DNA of 37,549 bases from an uncultured Bacteroidota bacterium (GTDB taxonomy: Bacteria; Bacteroidota; Bacteroidia; JABEUT01), in contig CAIWVW010000001.1 in NCBI GenBank assembly GCA_903916255.1, positions 1 to 37,549 on the forward strand, given 5' to 3'. Within the stretch, counting starts at the first letter, position 1, and each line of letters opens with the position of its first letter. A model generated the notes under the pieces. That model was not told the origin of the DNA and did no database searches. It saw only the letters and a list, made by a program, of their open reading frames with translations. The translations under genes were made by a program, and so were the position numbers. This document shows positions 16,590 through 23,064 of the stretch, one piece after another.

Positions 16590-17462
16590 TTACAAAATTC
16601 CTTCCAAGTCATCAATGTTTTTTAACCATTTCATTTTTGGCGGAAATTTAACTTTGGACAGGACTTCGGGATTACCGGAAATAAAAATTTCGGACTTAGA
16701 AATGAGTTTGCTTAGTTTGTCGAGGTAATCCTGAACTTCTTCCACTGGTTGTGTGGTAGTTACGAAAGCTAATAGATTGGCAGGGTGGCAGGTTTTATAT
16801 ACGCTAACTGCATCTTCCAAAGGCACATTTTGCCCCAGATAAATTACAGGATGCCGGCTGGATTTAACCAGGTAATGCGCTGTTAGCAGACCAATTTCAT
16901 GAAATTCGCGTTCAGGCAAAAACAACATAAATTTGCTTTTTGACTTATCAGGCGGTAATTGGGAATCGATGGCGGTTATTATCTTTTGCCTGATTAAATT
17001 GGAAACAAAATGTTCTTGAGCAGGATTAATTTTTCCGATAGACCAGAACAAACCGACTTTTTCGAGCAATGGGTATATAAGTTTTAATAAAGTATCCTTG
17101 AAACCTAAGCTAAGCAGGGAAGATGAAAATATTTTTTCAAACATTTCCTCATCCAGTTCTATCATTGAAACGACAAGCCCGCTCAACTTATCCTCCGGAT
17201 ATGATGTGCTTTCAATATCCTCAGCCAGCAGATGCTTGTTTATTTCATCCGGTTTTAGTTTACTTATCTTCGAAATTTTAAAACCTTTCTTTAGAAGTAA
17301 GGCAACATTCAGAAGCCGCTTTAACTGTTCATCATCATAAATGCGTATATTGGTATCTGTCCGTTTCGGTTTCAATAATCCATAACGAACCTCCCAAATC
17401 CGGATTGTATGGGCCTTTATTCCCGATAACTTTTCTAATTCTTTAATGGAATAGTTTCCCAC
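16590..17462 (-). CDS. CarH-like MerR regulator with B12-binding photoreceptor domain
   Basis: A 290-residue regulator. Residues 4-70 are a MerR winged-helix domain (YSIKELEKLSGIKAHTIRIWEVRYGLLKPKRTDTNIRIYDDE). Residues 90-165 form the helical B12-cap with the W-x9-EH signature (Trp140, Glu150, His151). The Rossmann-like cobalamin domain follows, with ExHxxG (Glu186, His188, Gly191), His188 being the expected lower ligand. All light-sensing residues known from Thermus CarH are present at matching spacing. Such proteins bind adenosylcobalamin, tetramerise on DNA in the dark to repress carotenoid genes, and fall apart in light. The start is GTG, supported by the canonical MerR N-terminus. It is divergent from folE-crt, with an operator-like array over its own promoter. 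Confidence 0.9.
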   Translation of the reverse strand: MGNYSIKELEKLSGIKAHTIRIWEVRYGLLKPKRTDTNIRIYDDEQLKRLLNVALLLKKGFKISKISKLKPDEINKHLLAEDIESTSYPEDKLSGLVVSMIELDEEMFEKIFSSSLLSLGFKDTLLKLIYPLLEKVGLFWSIGKINPAQEHFVSNLIRQKIITAIDSQLPPDKSKSKFMLFLPEREFHEIGLLTAHYLVKSSRHPVIYLGQNVPLEDAVSVYKTCHPANLLAFVTTTQPVEEVQDYLDKLSKLISKSEIFISGNPEVLSKVKFPPKMKWLKNIDDLEGIL

Positions 17463-17479: not shown

Positions 17480-17526
17480 ATGTTTAATAACTTGGCAAAT
17501 ATATTAAACATATCAATATGTTTCAT
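17480..17526. promoter_or_regulatory. Operator-like array A over the MerR promoter
   Basis: ATGTTTAATA (17480-17489) and TATTAAACAT (17502-17511) form a perfect 10-base inverted repeat, followed by ATGTTTCAT (17518-17526). The last two also form AAACATAT-CA-ATATGTTT (17506-17523). The array straddles the -7 box at 17496-17503, consistent with autorepression by the MerR protein. Confidence 0.65.
17496..17503 (-). promoter_or_regulatory. -7 box TATATTTG of the MerR gene
   Basis: An exact TAnnTTTG match on the minus strand, 33 bases before the GTG start, lying between the arms of array A. Confidence 0.6.
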
Positions 17527-17647
17527 TGTATTTATTTCCGAAAAAAAATGGATTCTTCAACAAGATAGTAGGTATTCCATATTGAATCATTTAGCCACAT
17601 AAAAATAACTTACTCATTATCAAGAAATTTACCTTGCAATGTATTTT

Positions 17648-17685
17648 GTTTAATCTTTTAATGATTTTATTAAACATAATGTTTC
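17648..17685. promoter_or_regulatory. Operator-like array B over the folE-crt promoter
   Basis: TGTTTAAT (17648-17655), ATTAAACAT (17669-17677) and ATGTTTC (17679-17685) repeat the three half-sites of array A in the same order and orientation, with slightly different spacing. The array abuts the -7 box at 17686. Confidence 0.65.
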
Positions 17686-17693
17686 TATATTTG
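17686..17693 (+). promoter_or_regulatory. -7 box TATATTTG of the folE-crt operon
   Basis: An exact TAnnTTTG match, with the same sequence as the divergent MerR box. It is 54 bases before the ATG at 17748 and makes the longer frame from 17634 untenable as the translated form. Confidence 0.65.
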
Positions 17694-17747: not shown

Positions 17748-18467
17748 ATGAAAACGAAAGAAATTTCATTAAACAACCTGATAGACGGAGACAGAATATC
17801 CTTAAGCGCATTAAGTATCGACGAAATCGGGGATGAGCACATATCGACGGGAATAGAAACGCCGATGAAAACAACAGCATTCGATATGAGCGATGATGAA
17901 AAAATAGAGAAGATTGAATTTCATTTCCGGGAGATAATGGAAACAATGGGGCTCGACCTGAATGATGACAGCCTGAAAGGAACTCCACTCCGGGTTGCCA
18001 AAATGTATATTAAGGAATTATATAGTGGCCTCAATCCTGCCAATAAGCCTAAAATTGCCCTGTTTGAAAACAAATATAAATATGACCAAATGCTTGTGGA
18101 GAAGGGGATTGCGTTTTACAGTAATTGCGAGCATCACTTTGTTCCCATATTCGGGAAAGCTCATGTGGCCTATATTTCATCCGGAAAAGTTATAGGCTTA
18201 TCTAAACTGAACCGGATTGTTAATTATTATGCTAAACGCCCGCAGGTGCAGGAAAGACTGACCGTGCAAATAGCAAAAGAATTGCAGCAATGCTTACAGA
18301 CTGAAAATGTGGCCGTATTGATTGATGCCAAGCATTTATGTGTTGCATCAAGAGGCATAAAAGATAATAACTCATCAACAGTTACTTCCTTTTATGGAGG
18401 CACGTTTTTAGAAGACCAGACAAAAAAGGAGTTTCTTGCCTATCTAGGTTTAAATACCGATTACTGA
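17748..18467 (+). CDS. folE: GTP cyclohydrolase I
   Basis: A 239-residue cytoplasmic enzyme converting GTP to dihydroneopterin triphosphate, the first step of folate and pterin synthesis. The zinc ligands are present: Cys127 and His130 region in SNCEHHFVP, and Cys198 in HLCVASRGI. The conserved VIGLSKLNRIVNYYAKRPQVQERLTVQIA and TSFYGGTF blocks are intact. The N-terminal 50 residues are a poorly conserved extension. The start at 17748 is the first in-frame ATG after the promoter. It heads the carotenoid operon, 38 bases before crtI. folE genes recur beside CarH/LitR-type regulators, possibly to feed pterin or folate cofactors for light responses; here that link is inference. Confidence 0.93.
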   Translation: MKTKEISLNNLIDGDRISLSALSIDEIGDEHISTGIETPMKTTAFDMSDDEKIEKIEFHFREIMETMGLDLNDDSLKGTPLRVAKMYIKELYSGLNPANKPKIALFENKYKYDQMLVEKGIAFYSNCEHHFVPIFGKAHVAYISSGKVIGLSKLNRIVNYYAKRPQVQERLTVQIAKELQQCLQTENVAVLIDAKHLCVASRGIKDNNSSTVTSFYGGTFLEDQTKKEFLAYLGLNTDY

Positions 18468-18505: not shown

Positions 18506-19999
18506 ATGCCCTGCATATCAATAATTGGAAGTGGATTCTCCGGGCTTTCTGCTGCATGTTTTGCGGCAAGTGGCGGGGCTGATGTGCAAGTATTTGAAAA
18601 AAATAACATGCCCGGCGGACGGGCGGGGTATTTTAAGGAACAGGGATTTCTTTTTGAATCAGGGCCAAGCTGGTATTGGATGCCCGATGTTTTTGAGAAG
18701 TTCTTTAACCGGTTTGGCAAATCGGCAAAAGATTATTACAACTTAGTTCAACTCGACCCGGGATTTCAAATATTTTTCAAAGACAAGGATTGCTTAAAAG
18801 TCCCCGCTTCTTTAAATGAACTATATGAGGTTTTCGAGAATATTGAGCCCGGAAGCGCAGCTAAACTTAAAAGGTTTTTGAAGGAAGGCGAACTAAAGTA
18901 TAATTTAGGAATGCGAGAACTGGTTTACAAACCAGCCTACTCATGGAAAGAATTTGCTCGCTACGATGTGCTCGTAGGGGTAGCAAAATCAAATGTGTTT
19001 AAATCATTAAGGAGTTATGTACGTAGCTTTTTTAAAGATGAACGTCTGATTGCCTTAATGGAATTCCCGGTGTTGTTTTTAGGCGCTATGCCTCAACAAA
19101 TACCTGCTTTGTATAGCCTGATGAATTATGCAGCCTTGGAAATGGGTACCTGGTATCCAATGGGCGGAATGTATAAAGTAGTGGAAGGAATGCATGCACT
19201 TGGGTCTTCACTAGGAGTTCACTTTTATATGAACAGTGAGATAAAGAAAATTTCAGTTTCTGATGAGGCAGCTTATGGCGTTCGAACCGTTGACAGAAGT
19301 TTCAGAACAGATGCAATAGTAGCCTCTGCCGATTATCATTATGTGGAAAACAATTTACTGGATGAACACTACCGGAATTACACGGAGCAGTATTGGAATA
19401 AAAAAACATTGGCCCCTTCTTGCTTGCTATTCTTTGTTGGGGTAAATAAAAAAATAAAAAAACTGATTCACCACAATTTGTTTTTCGATACTGATTTTGA
19501 AACCCATGCCACTGCCATTTACAAAAGCCCGAAATGGCCTGAAAATCCCTTATTCTATGTTTGTTGCCCATCGAAAACAGACCCGTCGGTAGCTCCCGAT
19601 GGCATGGAGAACCTTTTTATTCTGGTGCCAATTGCGCCTGGAATGGAAGACACGGAAAGCATACGTAACGGTTATTTTGATTCACTGATTAAGCGCATAG
19701 AAATACAATGCGATGACTCTTTTGGAGAACATATTGTTTTCAAAAAAAGTTACTGCATAAATGATTTTGAAAAAGATTATCATGCCTATAAAGGTAATGC
19801 CTACGGCTTGGCAAATACATTGTCGCAAACTGCATTTTTGAAACCATCTATGCGCAATAACAAACTAAATAACCTTTTTTATGCCGGACAACTTACGGTG
19901 CCAGGTCCGGGTGTTCCTCCGGCTATAATATCCGGACAAATAGCAGCTGAACAAGCATTGAAATTTTGCAATAAATTGATGTATGAAAAGGTTATTTGA
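18506..19999 (+). CDS. crtI: Phytoene desaturase
   Basis: A 497-residue FAD-dependent desaturase of the CrtI family, expected to turn phytoene into lycopene at the membrane. The dinucleotide-binding fold is at the N-terminus (IIGSGFSGLSAACFA, with Glu31 to bind ribose, then PGGRAG at 36-41), followed by FESGPSW. The C-terminal FAD motif is NNLFYAGQLTVPGPGVPPAIISGQIAAEQ. Length and motifs are typical of Bacteroidota CrtI. Its 3' end overlaps crtB by 17 bases, so the pair is translationally coupled. Confidence 0.95.
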   Translation: MPCISIIGSGFSGLSAACFAASGGADVQVFEKNNMPGGRAGYFKEQGFLFESGPSWYWMPDVFEKFFNRFGKSAKDYYNLVQLDPGFQIFFKDKDCLKVPASLNELYEVFENIEPGSAAKLKRFLKEGELKYNLGMRELVYKPAYSWKEFARYDVLVGVAKSNVFKSLRSYVRSFFKDERLIALMEFPVLFLGAMPQQIPALYSLMNYAALEMGTWYPMGGMYKVVEGMHALGSSLGVHFYMNSEIKKISVSDEAAYGVRTVDRSFRTDAIVASADYHYVENNLLDEHYRNYTEQYWNKKTLAPSCLLFFVGVNKKIKKLIHHNLFFDTDFETHATAIYKSPKWPENPLFYVCCPSKTDPSVAPDGMENLFILVPIAPGMEDTESIRNGYFDSLIKRIEIQCDDSFGEHIVFKKSYCINDFEKDYHAYKGNAYGLANTLSQTAFLKPSMRNNKLNNLFYAGQLTVPGPGVPPAIISGQIAAEQALKFCNKLMYEKVI

Positions 20000-20819
20000 C
20001 CAGATTTCAAATACTTGCAGCAAGCTGACAACAAGAACGTACAGCACAAGCTTCTCGTTAGGGATTTATTGCCTTAACCGGAAATTGCACAATCCAATTT
20101 ATAGCATCTATGGATTTGTTCGGTTGGCCGATGAAATAGTTGACTCCTTTCATGAATATGACAAAACATCCCTGCTAAAGGAATTCAAAACTGAAACCTA
20201 CAAAGCGATAGAGCGCAAAATCAGTTTAAATCCTATATTGAACAGCTTTCAGGAGGTAGTAAATACATGCGGAATAGAACAGGTACTTATAGATAGTTTC
20301 TTTTACAGTATGGAGCTGGATTTAAATAAAAACACTCACAATGCAAGCTCTTATACTAAATATATATTTGGCTCTGCAGAGGTTGTGGGTTTGATGTGTT
20401 TGCGTGTTTTTACCCAAAATTCGGAGGAGGATTACCAACGGCTGAAACCAGCGGCTATGAAGCTTGGCTCGGCATTTCAGAAAGTAAATTTTCTGCGCGA
20501 TTTGAAATCCGATTATCAAACATTGGGCCGTGTGTATTTTCCTGATGTTGACATGAAGTGCTTTTCTGATGCCGAAAAAAATAAAATTGAAAAGGATATA
20601 GAAAACGATTTTACAGCAGCATTGGAAGGCATCAGGAATCTTCCCGATTCATGCCGTTTTGGGGTTTATTTGGCCTATGTTTATTATAAAAGCCTTTTTA
20701 ATAAAATTAAATCGGTATCGCCTGAAGGCGTAATGACAGGGAGAATAAGGGTTCCCAATTATAAGAAGTTTAGTTTGCTTGCAAGTTCCTTTTTAAAACA
20801 TGGTTTACGGATTTTATAA
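19983..20819 (+). CDS. crtB: Phytoene synthase
   Basis: A 278-residue synthase joining two geranylgeranyl diphosphates into phytoene. Both aspartate-rich Mg-binding motifs are present: D50-E-I-V-D54 in YGFVRLADEIVD and D173-L-K-S-D177 in KVNFLRDLKSD. The N-terminal TYSTSF motif (20-24) is also typical of squalene/phytoene synthases. It starts inside the crtI 3' end, in another frame. The isomerase gene starts right after its stop. Confidence 0.95.
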   Translation: MKRLFDQISNTCSKLTTRTYSTSFSLGIYCLNRKLHNPIYSIYGFVRLADEIVDSFHEYDKTSLLKEFKTETYKAIERKISLNPILNSFQEVVNTCGIEQVLIDSFFYSMELDLNKNTHNASSYTKYIFGSAEVVGLMCLRVFTQNSEEDYQRLKPAAMKLGSAFQKVNFLRDLKSDYQTLGRVYFPDVDMKCFSDAEKNKIEKDIENDFTAALEGIRNLPDSCRFGVYLAYVYYKSLFNKIKSVSPEGVMTGRIRVPNYKKFSLLASSFLKHGLRIL

Positions 20820-20820
20820 A

Positions 20821-21342
20821 ATGAATTTTAAAATGGAGAAAGAGTATGTAGTATTAGTAGATTCCGAAGACACTGAGATTGGTGTAATGGATAAGATACA
20901 AGCGCACAAAGAGGGTAAATTACATCGTGCCATATCTGTGCTGATATTTAATTCGAAGCAGCAACTTTTGCTGCAAAAAAGGGCTGCTATAAAATACCAC
21001 TCGCCGGGGTTGTGGAGCAATACATGCTGTTCCCATCCAAGGCAAAATGAAAAAAACCATCAGGCGGCATCGCGAAGATTAAAAGAGGAAATGGGGTTGG
21101 ATTGTCATCTCAACTTTCTATTTAATTTAACCTATAAATTAAATTTGGAAGATAATTTAATAGAACATGAATACGACTACATTTATGTTGGACAAAGCGA
21201 CACCTTGCCTAATCCTGACAGTAAAGAAGTAAGTGAATGGCGCTATGAAGATATACAAAGCATAGAAAGAGAAATTAAATTAAACCCACATGCCTTCACG
21301 CCTTGGTTTAAATTAATAATGGAACAATTCAAAACTCGTTAG
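20821..21342 (+). CDS. idi: Isopentenyl-diphosphate delta-isomerase, type I
   Basis: A 173-residue Nudix-fold isomerase interconverting isopentenyl and dimethylallyl diphosphates, the C5 precursors for the pathway. The catalytic Cys motif is SNTCCSHP, the Nudix-like helix is ASRRLKEEMGLDC, and EHEYDYIYVG carries the second catalytic Glu. The ATG at 20821 follows the crtB stop by one base; an upstream ATG at 20800 overlapping crtB and a downstream one at 20833 are alternatives. Its presence suggests the cell makes precursors through a pathway that benefits from type I Idi. Confidence 0.94.
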   Translation: MNFKMEKEYVVLVDSEDTEIGVMDKIQAHKEGKLHRAISVLIFNSKQQLLLQKRAAIKYHSPGLWSNTCCSHPRQNEKNHQAASRRLKEEMGLDCHLNFLFNLTYKLNLEDNLIEHEYDYIYVGQSDTLPNPDSKEVSEWRYEDIQSIEREIKLNPHAFTPWFKLIMEQFKTR

Positions 21343-21351
21343 ACTAAAAAA

Positions 21352-21813
21352 ATGGTTGCCGCAATAATAACGATAAGCGCATTTCTTATAATGGAGGCAG
21401 TTACATGGCTTACCCATAAGTTTGTAATGCATGGCTTTTTATGGAATTTGCACCGCGACCATCATAAAAAAGACCATGATTCGTTTTTTGAAAGGAATGA
21501 CTACTTTTTTGTAATCTTCGCCATACCCTCCATTATTTTATTTGCCATAGGAAATGCAAATCAGCATGTATGGTATTTGTTCTATATCGCTCTTGGAATT
21601 ACGCTCTATGGGTTTGCTTACTTTATGGTTCACGAAATTTTCATTCATCAGCGGTTTAAACTTTTTAGCCGTACAGATAATATGTATTTTCGGGCTATAC
21701 GCAAAGCGCATAAGGTACACCACAAACATTTGGGTAAGGAAGACGGGGAATGCTTTGGTATGTTAATTGTGCCATTCAAATATTTTATGGAAGCGAAAAA
21801 GAACCATAAATGA
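21352..21813 (+). CDS. crtZ: Beta-carotene hydroxylase (CrtZ type)
   Basis: A 153-residue di-iron membrane hydroxylase adding 3-hydroxyl groups to beta-carotene rings (to zeaxanthin). The four histidine motifs are HKFVMH (22-27), HRDHH (34-38), HEIFIH (94-99) and HKVHH (120-124), set between membrane helices as in CrtZ. The start is nine bases after idi. Its stop overlaps the crtY start by four bases (ATGA). Confidence 0.94.
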   Translation: MVAAIITISAFLIMEAVTWLTHKFVMHGFLWNLHRDHHKKDHDSFFERNDYFFVIFAIPSIILFAIGNANQHVWYLFYIALGITLYGFAYFMVHEIFIHQRFKLFSRTDNMYFRAIRKAHKVHHKHLGKEDGECFGMLIVPFKYFMEAKKNHK

Positions 21814-22535
21814 GCTTAGTTCATTACACATATTTGCTTGTTGACATAGGGTGCTTTATTATTCCCTTTATTTTTTCCTATCATCCCAAAATTGAATTTT
21901 ACAAGGAAGTAACATTCCTCCGCTTACCGAATTTAATAACAGCATTTCTTTTTTTAGTTTGGGATGCCTTCTACACCAGAATGGGTATTTGGGGGTTTAA
22001 TCCAAAATATCTGACAGATTTTTACATTTTTAATTTACCCCTGGAAGAAGTTTTGTTTTTCTTACTTATCCCCTACTCTTGCGTCTTCATATATTGGTGC
22101 TTTCGGTTATTTGTTAAAACATCTGCACCCAAAAGCACTTTTTATCTTTCCCTCAAGCTTTTAGCTCTCAGTCTTTTTGCAACAGGTGCTGTTAACTATA
22201 GCAAATACTATACGTCGGCTACATTTATATTGTTGGCTATTATTCTCTACCTGTTGGCCCAACTGAAAGCAATTTTCTTAAAACCATTTATGATTTCGTT
22301 CGGAATAGTTCTTATCCCCTTTTTCATTTCAAATGGGTTGCTCACAGGCAGTTTTCTTGCCGAACCTGTAGTGCAGTATAATAACACTTATAATCTTGGC
22401 ATCCGTTTATTTACAATCCCTTTAGAGGATATCTTTTATGCTATGCTACTTTTAATTTTAAATGTTTCAGGATATGAATATATCAAAGCAAGGAACAATT
22501 CTTCAAAATTGAAACAATCTAATTTTTACTTATAG
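21810..22535 (+). CDS. crtY: Lycopene cyclase, CrtYcd-type fused
   Basis: A 241-residue membrane protein of the heterodimer-derived lycopene cyclase family (TIGR03462, two fused domains), closing both ends of lycopene to beta-carotene. The family motif occurs once per half: NLPLEE (75-80) and FTIPLED (201-207). About seven membrane helices are predicted. This class differs from the FAD-dependent soluble CrtY; the symbol here denotes function, and crtYcd is equally apt. It is translationally coupled to crtZ. Confidence 0.9.
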   Translation: MSLVHYTYLLVDIGCFIIPFIFSYHPKIEFYKEVTFLRLPNLITAFLFLVWDAFYTRMGIWGFNPKYLTDFYIFNLPLEEVLFFLLIPYSCVFIYWCFRLFVKTSAPKSTFYLSLKLLALSLFATGAVNYSKYYTSATFILLAIILYLLAQLKAIFLKPFMISFGIVLIPFFISNGLLTGSFLAEPVVQYNNTYNLGIRLFTIPLEDIFYAMLLLILNVSGYEYIKARNNSSKLKQSNFYL

Positions 22536-22587: not shown

Positions 22588-23064
22588 ATGACTAAGCTCA
22601 ATCCAATAATTAAACTCATTCTATCTTTAGCCCTTACTTTAGCAGCAGGAGGAATTGCAGGAGTGTTTACGGCAACAGCCATCGGAACGTGGTTTGAAAC
22701 ATTACACCACCCTTCATTCAGGCCGCCTAATTGGCTTTTTGGCCCTGTTTGGACCATTCTATATATTCTAATGGGTATTTCTCTTTATTTAATTTGGAAG
22801 CAAGAAGCAACGCCAATAAGGAAAAACGCACTTCTAATTTTTGCCCTGCAATTATCTTTAAACTTTATTTGGAGTTTTTTGTTCTTTTATTTTCATGCAA
22901 TTGGGTTCGCACTTATTGAGATAGTTGCCTTATGGGTTTGTATTTCCATTATGATTTTGCAATTTAATAAAGTAAAACCCGTGGCTGCTTATTTGAATAT
23001 TCCGTATATAGTATGGGTGACATTTGCATTGATATTGAACGCTGCTTATTTTGAACTTAATTAA
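22588..23064 (+). CDS. tspO: TspO/MBR family protein
   Basis: A 158-residue, five-helix membrane protein of the TspO (peripheral benzodiazepine receptor-like) family. The conserved pattern is visible: ATAIGTWFETLHHPSFRPPNWLFGPVWTILYILMGIS and the tryptophan- and asparagine-bearing LNFIWSFLFF. TspO binds porphyrins, and in Rhodobacter it tunes photosynthesis gene expression. It follows crtY by 52 bases on the same strand, so it is probably the last gene of the operon, although a separate promoter in that gap cannot be excluded. A role in light or oxidative responses fits the neighbourhood. Confidence 0.92.
   Translation: MTKLNPIIKLILSLALTLAAGGIAGVFTATAIGTWFETLHHPSFRPPNWLFGPVWTILYILMGISLYLIWKQEATPIRKNALLIFALQLSLNFIWSFLFFYFHAIGFALIEIVALWVCISIMILQFNKVKPVAAYLNIPYIVWVTFALILNAAYFELN

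Follow-up and report, generated by a model that had tools for sequence, protein, structure and literature searches.

Known members of the CarH family bind tandem 11-bp direct repeats in the dark as tetramers (or dimers) loaded with adenosylcobalamin (AdoCbl), and are released by light (PMC9304148, PMC8156234). The repeat of the characterised operators is nnnnTnnACAn, with TnnACA as its core, and three or four copies in tandem make up the operators of Thermus thermophilus and Bacillus megaterium (PMC9304148). The CarA/CarH operator of carotenogenesis in Myxococcus xanthus is long and overlaps the promoter; it was first proposed to contain inverted repeats, but relatives do not conserve these, and the current view is that the protein reads direct repeats (PMC9304148). 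The class II LitR proteins of Pseudomonas (PplR/PmlR2) are MerR/B12-binding_2 repressors of light genes, including the known light-induced targets folE and photolyase, and have a bipartite site with a fixed spacer, T(G/A)TACA-N12-TGTA(C/T)A, with a LOV protein as the light sensor (PMC9758184). In the open-access literature searched, no operator or regulon has been described for any CarH of the Bacteroidota, and a search with the letters of the motif reported here returned unrelated papers only.

We analysed a stretch of 37,549 nucleotides (the window) from an uncultured Bacteroidota bacterium (assembly GCA_903916255.1, contig CAIWVW010000001.1), in which two 30-bp palindromes lie between a CarH-type regulator gene and a carotenoid cluster. 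The palindromes are likely to be operators at which the neighbouring B12 photoreceptor-repressor of the CarH type acts and, by the same reading, to serve as such across the Bacteroidia, where they would define a light-response regulon.

The regulator gene and the folE-crt cluster

The regulator gene (16590..17462, minus strand) was assigned to the CarH type based on Pfam and PDB searches, AlphaFold/Foldseek and the AdoCbl residues. The 290-residue protein comprises a MerR helix-turn-helix (residues 4-69), a four-helix B12-binding_2 bundle and a Rossmann domain, with Pfam matches to PF13411 (MerR-type, 4e-18) and then PF02607 (B12-binding_2, 4e-8). The Wx9EH signature at the upper face of AdoCbl is present as W140, E150 and H151, and the ExHxxG lower-ligand motif of the Rossmann domain as E186, H188 and G191 of EFHEIG; almost all homologues in the Bacteroidia retain both. 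The MerR DNA-binding domain, the Wx9EH bundle and the ExHxxG Rossmann domain are all shared with CarH from T. thermophilus and B. megaterium. The best PDB match is T. thermophilus CarH (5c8d/3whp, 6e-24), and when the AlphaFold model (31 homologues, pLDDT 88.5) was compared with the PDB by Foldseek, the top matches were all T. thermophilus CarH, with a TM-score (target) of up to 0.87 for the B12 domain. Domains, AdoCbl-binding signature and structural matches agree with the CarH-like regulator of the original prediction.

The best match of the regulator to the NCBIfam CarH equivalog model NF052513 scores 99.7 bits, far below the 400-bit cut-off, so that by this model it is a distant member of the family and not an equivalog. 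In T. thermophilus CarH, His132 forms the bis-His light state, a residue that is not required family-wide. The matching position is Ser in the regulator and mostly Gln across the class, and its light-state chemistry may therefore differ. The genome encodes a PduO-type cobalamin adenosyltransferase, which points to a supply of AdoCbl.

The cluster lies on the plus strand and consists of folE (GTP cyclohydrolase I, 17748..18467; Pfam/NCBIfam), a crtI-type phytoene desaturase gene (18506..19999; NCBIfam CrtID model), crtB (phytoene synthase, 19983..20819; Pfam SQS_PSY), idi (isopentenyl-diphosphate isomerase, 20821..21342; NCBIfam), a crtZ-like hydroxylase gene (21352..21813), a gene for a lycopene cyclase of the CarR/CrtYcd type (21810..22535; Pfam PF18916, TIGR03462) and, as the last gene of the crt cluster, one for a TspO-type protein (22588..23064; Pfam PF03073). 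Pfam and NCBIfam gave no family match at cut-off for the crtZ-like gene, which we take to be such from the usual composition of these clusters; its position in the operon, its length and the presence of homologues in syntenic crt operons were also used. TspO is known elsewhere as a photoresponse protein linked to porphyrins and carotenoids. Photolyase was considered as a further target in the source genome and rejected, as a search of the whole genome for the photolyase FAD domain (PF03441) found none. The pterin from this presumed light operon with folE may have another use, or the photolyase gene may be absent from the assembly.

Repeats between carH and folE-crt

The region between the regulator gene and folE-crt contains two copies of TGTTTAAT-N14-ATTAAACA (17481-17510 and 17647-17676). 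These two matches in the window compare with 0.00 expected from 100 dinucleotide shuffles and are the only ones in the whole genome (3.74 Mb), in which the reversed control pattern gave 0 matches. Palindrome 1 (TGTTTAATAACTTGGCAAATATATTAAACA, 17481..17510, no strand assigned) is the proposed autoregulatory operator and holds the -7 box of the carH promoter (TATATTTG, 17495..17502, minus strand) within its spacer. Palindrome 2 (TGTTTAATCTTTTAATGATTTTATTAAACA, 17647..17676, no strand assigned) is the proposed folE-crt operator; the putative -7 box of the folE-crt promoter, recognised like the other from its sequence, is again TATATTTG (17686..17693, plus strand).

The same ordered set of three half-sites had been claimed to lie over the -7 box of the MerR gene and just upstream of that of folE-crt, and all three elements were located at both promoters. 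At carH these are TGTTTAAT (17481-17488), ATTAAACAT (17503-17511) and ATGTTTC (17518..17524, plus strand), and at folE, in identical order, they occupy 17647-17654, 17669-17677 and 17679..17685 (plus strand). The first array straddles the carH -7 box and the second stops immediately before the folE -7 box. The first two elements are in constant register, their arm centres being 22 bp apart in both copies; the distance of ATGTTTC past the second arm centre differs, at 17 bp in the carH copy and 11 bp in the folE copy.

In a sister species, whose CarH is 82% identical to the regulator, identity is 83% for palindrome 1, 90% for palindrome 2 and 100% for both -7 boxes, compared with 61% for the remaining intergenic region, while ATGTTTC is identical at folE and degenerate at carH. 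The sister genome (G010; loci L035 and L036) also encodes, on another contig, a second CarH paralogue that is 59% identical to that of the window. About 2.4 kb from this paralogue is a palindrome with TATATTTG in its spacer, which precedes a long ORF with a start similar to that of a carboxypeptidase-like/TonB-dependent receptor.

Conservation of the palindrome in the Bacteroidia

Spacing was examined in 80 carH regions of the class Bacteroidia together with the window (81 sequences, 1.24 Mb). TGTTTA...TAAACA pairs occur 71 times at N18 and 13 times at N19, and every other spacing between 6 and 34 has two pairs at most; in the same 81 sequences, the histograms of divergent, direct and reversed control pairs were flat. 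At least one palindrome is found in 22 of the 29 bacterial families sampled, and the original prediction of an operator conserved upstream of orthologous Bacteroidota MerR-B12/crt loci is borne out for the palindrome. The aligned class-wide profile reads WTTTGTTTAAY, a W-rich stretch and then the mirror image, with no informative flanking positions beyond the mirrored arms. The unit conserved across the class is an inverted repeat of 30 bp, TGTTTAAY-N14-RTTAAACA, with arms 22 bp apart.

A survey of 396 Bacteroidia genomes with TGTTTAA-N16/17-TTAAACA gave 525 matches; the reversed pattern gave 73. CarH homologues (E <= 1e-40) are encoded in 269 of these genomes, and 222 of the 269 have an exact palindrome (491 sites versus 53 control matches), compared with 28 of the 127 genomes lacking CarH (34 sites versus 20 control matches). 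The co-occurrence of CarH and palindrome has an odds ratio of 16.7 (Fisher p = 1.5e-31, 396 genomes), the p-values being overstated and a guide only because related genomes are not phylogenetically independent. Among 223 Bacteroidota genomes outside the Bacteroidia there are 18 sites versus 23 control matches, and only two encode CarH (E <= 1e-30).

The exact site is missing from 47 CarH-encoding Bacteroidia genomes, some of which are GC-rich. These include family f9 (L193-L206, mostly GC-rich), in which the recognition-helix region of CarH is unchanged and there is no exact palindrome, any excess of TGTT-N22-AACA being weak at best. In a contig scan of named organisms, the other locus being that of the sister MAG, the carH locus of an Emticicia sp. 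had no exact site.

Genes behind the palindrome

The unique sites number 138, and for 119 of them the gene faced, at a distance of up to about 320 bp, belongs to one of 13 recurring families. These are the ECF sigma factor (60 sites), carH (17), DUF4397 (12), folE (8), crtI (7), a family without a Pfam match that we named SRPBCC-like (6), fasciclin (5), pterin synthase (4), rhodopsin (3), DUF2911 (3), beta-carotene 15,15'-dioxygenase (2), photolyase (2) and DUF2867 (2), and they are mostly families of light protection or light use. Secreted DUF4397 and fasciclin proteins are found time and again immediately behind the palindrome (L124, L128, L134, L142, L143, L166 and L173).

Many Bacteroidia have the site between carH and an ECF sigma gene that adjoins crt genes, which suggests a cascade from CarH to the ECF sigma factor in these organisms. 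The window has no intervening ECF sigma gene, folE-crt being directly behind palindrome 2. A site before an ECF sigma gene that is itself flanked by carH and crt genes is seen at L126:1605-2111 and at 50 or more similar loci.

Since two of the pattern matches adjoined rhodopsin genes, rhodopsins were searched for independently. A rhodopsin is present in 92 of the 396 Bacteroidia genomes, and 91 of these 92 also have CarH. A palindrome with no more than one mismatch over 14 positions was found within 250 bp upstream of rhodopsin in 25 of 47 regions, versus 2 of 615 other upstream regions from the carH-region loci (p = 4e-30); in the 47 regions the reversed control gave 0 and the shuffled mean was 0.06. 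The loci concerned are L153:1501-1564 (genome G259), L141 and L209-L258. At L153, in one genome, two tandem palindromes lie between the rhodopsin gene and a divergent beta-carotene 15,15'-dioxygenase gene, an arrangement that brings opsin and retinal supply together.

Proposed mechanism

The reading of the palindromes as CarH operators draws on their observed sequence, class-wide conservation, geometry, co-occurrence with CarH, gene content and overlap with promoters. In the simplest mechanism, AdoCbl-bound CarH would occupy both TAAACA arms, which are separated by two helical turns and share one face of the DNA, and would cover or flank the -7 box, giving repression of the pigment genes in the dark together with autorepression; light would break the Co-C bond and CarH would then leave the DNA. 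Across the class the regulon would take in the ECF sigma factor, pterin and carotenoid synthesis, photolyase and rhodopsin. Autorepression and repression of folE-crt are the simplest reading of the promoter overlap, and binding by CarH, repression in the dark, release by light and dependence on B12 are to be expected by analogy with the CarH family. As the palindrome recurs class-wide before light-protection genes and, in many cases, before those of the light-driven proton pumps (rhodopsins), it is most likely the DNA switch of this photoreceptor.

It is unlikely that the regulator binds the palindrome without photolysis of B12, either under the control of a partner as in class II LitR, or as a sensor of B12 level, or as an activator. 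Such a mode has a parallel in the LOV-controlled class II LitR of Pseudomonas with its bipartite TGTACA-N12-TGTACA (PMC9758184), and would accommodate both the lack of conservation at the H132 equivalent and the -7 boxes that are not covered by sites; nevertheless, the retention of Wx9EH and ExHxxG in nearly all homologues, the light genes that form the regulon and the cobalamin adenosyltransferase of the genome all argue for a photolytic mechanism. The sites themselves differ too, those of the Bacteroidia being TGTTTA/TAAACA with N18, with neither the TGTACA half-site nor the 12-bp spacer of class II LitR.

Geometry of the proposed operator and the third half-site

The palindrome is often doubled, with second copies (up to three mismatches) at 33-36, 41-44 and 61-64 bp, the last two offsets corresponding to about 4 and 6 helical turns. 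Relative to the palindrome, the -7 boxes favour the positions -6, 4-8, 15, 35-39, 47-48 and 56-59, which amounts to a phasing with a period of 10.7 bp that was reached in 0 of 2000 permutations, or in 1 of 2000 when overlapping positions were left out.

The operator had been predicted to consist of three half-sites, matching those of tetrameric CarH. That three DNA-binding domains of the tetramer each read a half-site, as in T. thermophilus, now appears improbable, given that the class-wide unit is a two-arm palindrome. An ATGTTTC does follow both palindromes, and the one at folE, with its distance of 11 bp to the second arm centre, has an identical counterpart in the sister species; however, the spacing of the element differs between the promoters, the sister carH has a degenerate form of it, and no fixed flanking position is enriched class-wide, so a third half-site was rejected as a class-wide element. 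In the flanks of isolated palindromes TGTTT/AAACA adjoins 32 of 122 sites, compared with 14 of 122 further out, and an auxiliary role for extra half-sites is therefore possible, although much of the extra flank signal is made up of whole second palindromes at the offsets given above. In other species a second tandem palindrome can begin at an offset of +33, and the ATGTTTC at folE has just this offset from palindrome 2; it may for that reason belong to a weak second palindrome as its left arm, the right arm being poor here. Tandem 11-bp direct repeats, as in the known CarH operators, were also rejected as the operator: in the carH/folE intergenic region TnnACA does not recur in direct orientation at 11, 22 or 33 bp, and the 11-bp period of TnnACA is at background level class-wide.

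It is very improbable that the palindrome is bound by a different transcription factor found alongside CarH in pigmented Bacteroidia, for although the exact site occurs in 28 genomes without CarH and association is not proof of binding, those genomes are near background (34 sites versus 20), the site is commonly found before carH itself or in the gap that separates carH from the neighbouring gene, and its half-site fits the TnnACA core of CarH. MliR (PMC9478572), a MerR-like regulator of the Bacteroidota, was rejected as the binder, being a different protein without an effector domain.

The palindrome of the Bacteroidia shares with the operators of T. thermophilus and B. megaterium the TnnACA core, to which its TAAACA arms conform, the overlap with promoters and the carotenoid targets. 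It differs from them in that the arms are inverted and 22 bp apart, and in that the targets across the class include the ECF sigma factor, folE and rhodopsin. MerR-type DNA-binding domains also read inverted half-sites ending in ACA in GlnR/TnrA and classical MerR, with arms about one helical turn apart, whereas those of the Bacteroidia are two turns apart. Unlike in M. xanthus, the inverted repeat is the conserved feature throughout the class. The sequence had been thought undescribed; this does not hold for the half-site, which fits the published TnnACA (PMC9304148), and it does hold for the inverted geometry and for an operator in the Bacteroidia, of which no description was found. As characterised CarH proteins bind tandem direct repeats head-to-tail (PMC9304148), an inverted operator would need a different arrangement of the DNA-binding domains.

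Implications for light responses in the Bacteroidia

On balance, we lean towards a Bacteroidia-wide scheme in which one B12 photoreceptor, acting through a palindromic operator with arms two turns apart, would switch pigments, photoprotection and the capture of light energy by rhodopsin, in one genome together with the divergent retinal-forming dioxygenase. For flavobacterial rhodopsin genes, both light-induced and constitutive expression appear in the titles cited in PMC3587595, and the palindrome is a testable candidate for their control. CarH is common in the Bacteroidia, and with a 30-bp palindrome this sharp and searchable a light regulon can be predicted for each genome. The palindrome also raises the question of how a family known to bind direct repeats head to tail would read an inverted one.
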